33,201 nucleotides of DNA from Anaerolineae bacterium (GTDB lineage Bacteria; Chloroflexota; Anaerolineae; Aggregatilineales; Phototrophicaceae): the NCBI GenBank assembly GCA_030950085.1, contig JAUZRW010000165.1, positions 1 to 33,201 on the forward strand, written 5' to 3'. The translations under genes and the position numbers were made by a program. Numbering within the stretch: the first letter of the stretch is position 1; every line of letters begins with the position of its first letter. Positions 22,350 through 23,052 of the stretch are shown here, one piece after another. The notes below the pieces were generated by a model. The model worked only from the letters and a program-made list of their open reading frames with translations. It had not been told where the DNA came from and did not search any database.

Positions 22350-22389
22350 AGTTTATTTTTATTCCAATTTAGAACGAAGGAAAGACGTA

Positions 22390-22977
22390 ATGCCTTACAT
22401 CAAGCAAGTCGAAGACCACGAGGCGACAGGTGCGGCAAAGCGCGAACTCGATAAGGCATATAAACGTGCCGGACGTGTCTGGAATATCGTGCGAATCATG
22501 ACACCCAACCCTGAAACATTACGCACCTCTATGAATATGTATATGACCATCATGTATGGCGAATCGCCCCTCAGCCGCGCTCAACGCGAGATGTTGGCAA
22601 CTGTCGTCAGCAAAAATAATCATTGCGTTTATTGAACTCGCGCCCACGCACATGACCTCCGTGCTGAGGTTAATTGGTTTGAAACAGAATTAGACGCTGA
22701 CCGTTACGTTAATGCAATTGCCGATGATTGGCACACATCATCCCTCAGCGATGTTGACCGCGCCTTGTGTGCGTATGCTGAAAAAATAACAGTTCACCCT
22801 AAAGCAATGACTGCCGAAGATGTGCAAATTTTGCGTGATTGTGGCTTGTCTGATACAGCTATACATGATGCTGCACAAATCATTGCTTACTTCAATTATA
22901 TCAATCGCGTGGCGGATGCACTCGGCATTGAAAACGAAACATTCGTCCGCGAGTGGGGTGAACTCGATTTAGCTTAG
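22390..22977 (+). CDS. Candidate selenoprotein: carboxymuconolactone decarboxylase/AhpD-like peroxidase-related protein (UGA = Sec82)
   Basis: The reading frame is 195 codons with a single in-frame TGA at 22633-22635, and homology continues on both sides. Residues 1-81 match the start of CMD/AhpD-like peroxidase-related proteins (D-H-E-A-T-G, P-L-S-R-A-Q-R-E-M). The motif is E67...C79-V-Y-U82-T-R-A-H86, exactly the spacing of the AhpD proton-relay set E118/C130/C133/H137, with TGA in place of the second Cys codon. A 7-bp hairpin at 22653-22672 follows the TGA. The likely role is thiol/selenol-based reduction of peroxides in the cytoplasm; the reductant is unknown. GAAGGA lies ~8 nt before the ATG. 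It may share a transcript with murA. An ordinary nonsense mutation or base error is the alternative, but the codon's position and the hairpin argue against it. No sel genes are in the window. Confidence 0.78.
22653..22672 (+). promoter_or_regulatory. Candidate bacterial SECIS hairpin
   Basis: UGACCUC (22653-22659) pairs with GAGGUUA (22666-22672) in 7 bp, including one G-U. The loop CGUGCU (22660-22665) has G at its second position. The loop begins 25 nt after the last base of the TGA. These features meet the published bacterial SECIS rules as I know them (a short stem, G among the first two loop bases, 16-37 nt spacing). It lies inside the coding frame, as bacterial SECIS elements do. Confidence 0.7.
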
Positions 22978-22989
22978 TGTAGGAAAAAC

Positions 22990-23052
22990 CTCTCCATCAG
23001 ACATAATATAATTTTGTGTGAGGCGCAGTGAAACCCCGAAAGGGGCTTTTAT
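22990..23052 (+). repeat. Dispersed element C, copy 2 (3' half) with terminator
   Basis: The last ~40 nt (GTGTGAGGCGCAGTGAAA-CCCC-GAAA-GGGG-CTTTTAT, 23016-23052) are nearly identical to 19528-19564. The 5' half diverges from the other copies. It directly follows the Sec-candidate gene and probably terminates its transcript. The minus-strand version could also terminate the convergent dehydrogenase-like gene. Confidence 0.65.

Follow-up and report, generated by a model that had tools for sequence, protein, structure and literature searches.

The window analysed here (the whole 33,201-nt stretch of the contig) carries on its forward strand a coding sequence at 22390–22977 that comprises 195 codons and a TAG stop when its single in-frame TGA, codon 82 at 22633–22635, is translated as selenocysteine (Sec). 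A Shine–Dalgarno-like box (GAAGGA, 22376–22381) is located 8 nt 5′ of the ATG, and the TGA occupies the position of the second Cys of an AhpD-type CxxC motif, giving C79-V-Y-U82 with the Cys79 codon at 22624–22626. The codons of two further residues assigned to a proton relay by homology, Glu67 and His86, are found at 22588–22590 and 22645–22647, respectively, and a SECIS-like hairpin follows at 22653–22672. Upstream, on the same strand, lie a short-chain dehydrogenase gene and an EPSP-synthase-type carboxyvinyltransferase gene, the latter ending 40 nt before the ATG, whereas an iron-containing alcohol dehydrogenase-like gene is encoded downstream on the opposite strand. A small GC hairpin at 23034–23045 followed by a few T is a possible terminator by eye, on which the scan was silent. 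A BLASTP comparison of the flanking ORFs in the window with those around 13 homologues and around the host's own paralogue revealed no shared neighbour, except among close relatives, namely the Actinomarina strains and a pair of congeneric genomes.

Under translation table 11 the frame that opens at 22390 stops after 81 aa. The earlier note had described one TGA interrupting a continuous 195-codon frame at the CxxC position, and translation reproduces this exactly; its expectation that automated annotation would split the gene or call it a pseudogene holds to the extent that the table-11 ORF list returns the 81-aa fragment. As an ordinary ORF caller truncates the gene at this point, a presumably active redox enzyme risks being recorded as a fragment or a pseudogene in genomes of this kind. 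For a random in-frame stop, the chance of falling on codon 82 is ∼1 in 195.

The host's draft assembly, which totals 5.09 Mb in 266 contigs and is 97% complete, encodes a tRNA-Sec with the anticodon TCA (UCA in the RNA; 64.7 bits); selA, selB and selD are present as well, at 571.8, 369.6 and 366.1 bits, respectively. The absence of selA, selB or tRNA-Sec, which the earlier note had named as evidence against its own reading, is therefore not what is seen, as all three are present and selD besides. The host selD has an in-frame TGA of its own (AACAG-U-ASKLGPK; L016, reverse strand, nt 1531; G000:C189), such that the selenophosphate synthetase itself looks like a selenoprotein. A reading of UGA as some other residue (e.g. 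Trp), via a variant code or simple readthrough without Sec, would leave the frame likewise open, but column 82 is occupied in homologues by Cys (or Ser) and not by Trp, and the tRNA-Sec(UCA) is accompanied by selA, selB and selD. Moreover, TGA terminates 4 of the 25 long frames called under table 11 in the window, making a wholesale reassignment unlikely. On these grounds wholesale reassignment was rejected, and we regard any decoding of this codon as a residue other than Sec as exceedingly improbable.

To place the codon in a comparative context, 16 homologues were taken from public genomes. One of the query patterns carried Cys at column 82 (KNNHCVYC), so that Cys forms were, if anything, favoured in the search. 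The 11 closest homologues (44–69% identity) nonetheless all have TGA at column 82, and these span Chloroflexota, Planctomycetota and Candidatus Actinomarina; the five more distant ones have TGT in one case (Bacteroidales) and Ser in four (Pseudomonadota, Acidobacteriota). This answers the question, raised in the earlier note, of whether the column holds Cys or Sec in homologues. A tRNA-Sec is present in all 11 genomes of the TGA carriers (65.7–75.2 bits), whereas genomes encoding a Cys or Ser variant do not exceed 47.7 bits, with the exception of the acidobacterium, which has one. Six of these genomes encode a SelB that passes the cut-off. In the remaining five, all Actinomarina, SelB-like proteins reach 175–213 bits, short of that threshold; three of them are full length, whereas the other two are either split or truncated at the edge of a contig. 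A search of 400 genomes from the host's phylum gave matches in 24 of them, with TGA in all 17 matches above 100 bits; in total, 18 matches from this phylum search, each read individually, add to the 11 homologues with TGA at the motif column. All 17 phylum genomes with a TGA-bearing match have selA, compared with 322 of the 400 overall, a co-occurrence (probability 0.02) that is weak evidence because selA is found in 80% of the phylum sample. The host itself holds a second gene of the family (L034, G000:C76:1366–1905, minus strand), 41% identical, with a CDYU motif and TGA at the same place; downstream of it is a different hairpin, CCGUC-AGUU-GACGG.

These data bear directly on two rival explanations of the in-frame stop. 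A nonsense mutation that truncates an AhpD-like gene at codon 82 would account for the 81-aa fragment returned by a table-11 ORF caller. However, 11 homologues from other species share the TGA at this column, as do the 18 phylum matches and one paralogue; the frame 3′ of the TGA is open and conserved through to the C-terminus in the alignment, and the genome has the full Sec machinery. As conservation of the TGA goes together with that of the downstream frame, the pseudogene was rejected, its likelihood being negligible. Similarly, an error of sequencing or assembly at a TGT or TGC codon would require just one base, and the genome is a draft; yet the same TGA recurs in independent assemblies by other groups and throughout the SECIS-bearing clade. 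An artefact of this kind was rejected on account of the independent assemblies and is hardly conceivable, and the misread TGT or TGC at 22633–22635 that the earlier note had held against its proposal can be set aside with it. Taken together, the gene is almost certainly a selenoprotein gene of the AhpD-like, peroxidase-related family (COG2128/TIGR01926), as judged from the sequence comparisons, and the proposal of the earlier note that UGA is read as Sec gains support from the Sec machinery, the conserved TGA and the SECIS-like hairpin.

The hairpin at 22653–22672 has the sequence UGACCUC-CGUGCU-GAGGUUA, and a simple scan reports it as terminator-like. The bSECIS model, with the constraints used as quoted in PMC13188914, specifies an apical loop of 3–9 nt, a stem of 4–16 bp, a UGA-to-loop distance of 16–37 nt, a G in the first two loop positions and a minimum free energy of −7.5 kcal/mol or lower. 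All of these are satisfied by the window hairpin, which has the loop CGUGCU, a 7-bp stem, a distance of 24 nt and −8.0 kcal/mol for the 27-nt element. A strict hairpin motif search missed the window sequence, since its stem has a terminal T instead of C. Folding of a 50-nt window against composition-matched shuffles gave z −0.13, an ordinary stability, and as the folding energy is not significant the case for a SECIS rests on codon conservation and on pair changes. In support of the former, the codons of D89 (GAC), L90 (CTC) and E93 (GAG) are identical in all 11 non-Actinomarina orthologues (window included), whereas four other invariant Leu codons in the same 11 show a pairwise codon identity of just 0.31–0.53. 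Standard pairs occupy 90% of the stem cells across 15 sequences, as opposed to 26–54% when the partner is slid. At stem pair 24–37 a compensatory exchange is observed, with C–G in 11 sequences and U–A in 4; no other pair has changed at both positions, and the exchange sets a single clade apart. In 8 of 13 sequences (the host's own paralogue included), the natural sequence is matched in folding by <5% of its synonymous recodings. L017, L019 and L026 are not outstanding by this measure, and in two of these orthologues, L019 and L026, the best fold differs from the SECIS-like hairpin. After the active site, members of the clade carry the peptide DLR.E, which homologues with Cys or Ser lack; this fits a peptide that may have been shaped by the RNA element. 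The conserved hairpin also offers a comparative handle for finding further members.

With respect to family, the protein passes the TIGR01926 (peroxidase-related enzyme) profile at 152.2 bits against a cut-off of 81.8, a profile matched by all 17 sequences of the alignment, and the Pfam CMD profile at 43.1 against 23. The cut-offs of three other models are not reached, namely TIGR00777 for AhpD sensu stricto (17 bits; curated cut-off 191.95) and two NCBIfam equivalogs for (seleno)proteins, NF041238 AhpD_rel_CFYUT (84.1 bits; cut-off 175) and the YciW-related NF053654 (25.9 bits; cut-off 310). By its profile matches the protein is thus an AhpD-like member of the peroxidase-related family COG2128/TIGR01926; of the earlier description as 'AhpD/CMD-like' the first half stands, whereas CMD is better replaced by peroxidase-related. 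Among solved structures, those closest to it in sequence are 6k40 (AhpD-like, Deinococcus radiodurans), 2oyo and 3c1l. An AlphaFold2 model built from 17 sequences, with Cys standing in for Sec, has a pLDDT of 93.2 and a pTM of 0.90 and superimposes on 6k40 with TM scores of 0.83/0.86 at 37% identity, so that a fold like that of D. radiodurans DR1765 is predicted. The debrominase Bmp8 is also among the structural matches of the model, at 19% identity and much weaker than 6k40. E67, C79, Y81 and H86 are invariant in the 17-sequence alignment, and the AhpD-type spacing of Glu, Cys, His/Tyr and His is present. In Mycobacterium tuberculosis AhpD, a proton relay runs through Glu118, Cys130, His132, Cys133 and His137, and the peroxidase activity comes from its two cysteines (PMC3141380); the offsets of E67 and H86, which the earlier note had equated with those of E118 and H137, match this spacing.

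These features suggest how the protein may be made and how it may act. The hairpin just 3′ of the UGA would recruit SelB with Sec-tRNA-Sec, such that UGA82 is decoded as Sec. The resulting all-helical protein would possess a Cys79-x-x-Sec82 redox centre served by a proton relay of Glu67, Tyr81 and His86, where fold, relay residues and redox function are those expected from homology. By analogy, Sec82 would be the attacking residue and Cys79 its partner: the selenolate of Sec82 would attack an oxidised substrate, for which a hydroperoxide or a disulfide is the likeliest candidate, a selenenylsulfide with Cys79 would form, and a thiol donor would subsequently reduce it. Peroxide reduction is the somewhat better supported candidate for the main role, and the name 'selenol peroxidase' is one that we infer from homologous proteins. 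Loss of DR1765, the closest studied homologue, renders D. radiodurans more susceptible to H2O2, and complementation is poorer with CxxC variants (PMC8945050), a CxxC-dependent phenotype that speaks against a principal reaction other than peroxide reduction. A selenoprotein acting mainly as a disulfide reductase, as an adaptor that feeds a peroxiredoxin or as a Bmp8-like reductive dehalogenase is nevertheless a real, if less probable, possibility. AhpD doubles as an adaptor for AhpC (PMC3141380), and the host genome contains AhpC-TSA proteins (without TGA), which makes an adaptor role possible; the known AhpD-like protein PA0269 has weak peroxidase activity, and Bmp8 shares the fold. However, the Bmp8 match is far weaker, as noted above, and neither an adaptor nor a dehalogenase role is backed by any neighbouring gene.

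The window gene is an additional example of a selenoprotein type already known. AhpD-like selenoproteins of COG2128 appear in a 2006 list from bacterial genomes (PMC1794560), and the Global Ocean Sampling (GOS) metagenomes yielded in 2008 a CxxU family, 'AhpD-like 1', represented by 299 Sec sequences and 902 homologues with Cys (PMC2398784), in accord with the earlier note's statement on such proteins from marine metagenomes; later selenoprotein lists give TIGR01926 as the family model (PMC9312934, PMC13188914). The window protein shares with the GOS family this model and a CxxU motif with Sec in second place; it is chromosomal and belongs to a genome with nearest relatives in Chloroflexota; in a plasmid search, none of the matches listed reached 36% identity. 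With DR1765 (PDB 6k40) it shares fold, length and the CVY motif at 37% identity in the structural alignment, whereas DR1765 has Cys in place of Sec. The C-x-Y-U-T motif is common to NF041238, yet the match to that profile is partial, covering only positions 155–340 of 357 and scoring 84.1 bits, below the cut-off. M. tuberculosis AhpD and Pseudomonas aeruginosa PA0269 have the same spacing of Glu, Cys, His/Tyr, Cys/Sec and His; PA0269 and the window protein both have Tyr at the third motif place, whereas the AhpD model TIGR00777 assigns the window protein just 17 bits of the 191.95 required.

In a tree of 44 sequences the window gene falls into a supported clade of 16 (98/90) nested in one of 20 (97/90), all of them Sec forms. 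The GOS family includes Cys homologues, whereas in the clade of the window gene Sec forms alone were found, a pattern drawn from the limited sampling of 16–20 sequences. This apparently all-Sec clade with its fixed SECIS is the sole mildly new point. Tentatively, it may represent a strictly Sec-dependent subfamily, spread across Chloroflexota, Planctomycetota and the marine Candidatus Actinomarina, that has retained no Cys form and whose SECIS has fixed both codons and the peptide DLRxE, although we consider this the less likely outcome. If the clade is truly without Cys forms, it would provide a natural test case for enzymes that do not revert from Sec to Cys.

In the literature library searched, no paper turned up on Bmp8, nor any on selenoproteins or selenium use in Candidatus Actinomarina, the members of which (L022–L025 and L027; 3001–3549; genomes of 0.8–1.1 Mb) carry the selenoprotein together with a tRNA-Sec at 71–75 bits. 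Six genomes of one genus in the phylum of the host (L050, L051, L053, L054, L056 and L058) have a Cys form, CALC or CGLC, despite the presence of selA. The four Ser forms (CxYS; L029–L032, from 3001) all fall into one supported clade, and the genome of the acidobacterial one (L030) has both tRNA-Sec and selB.
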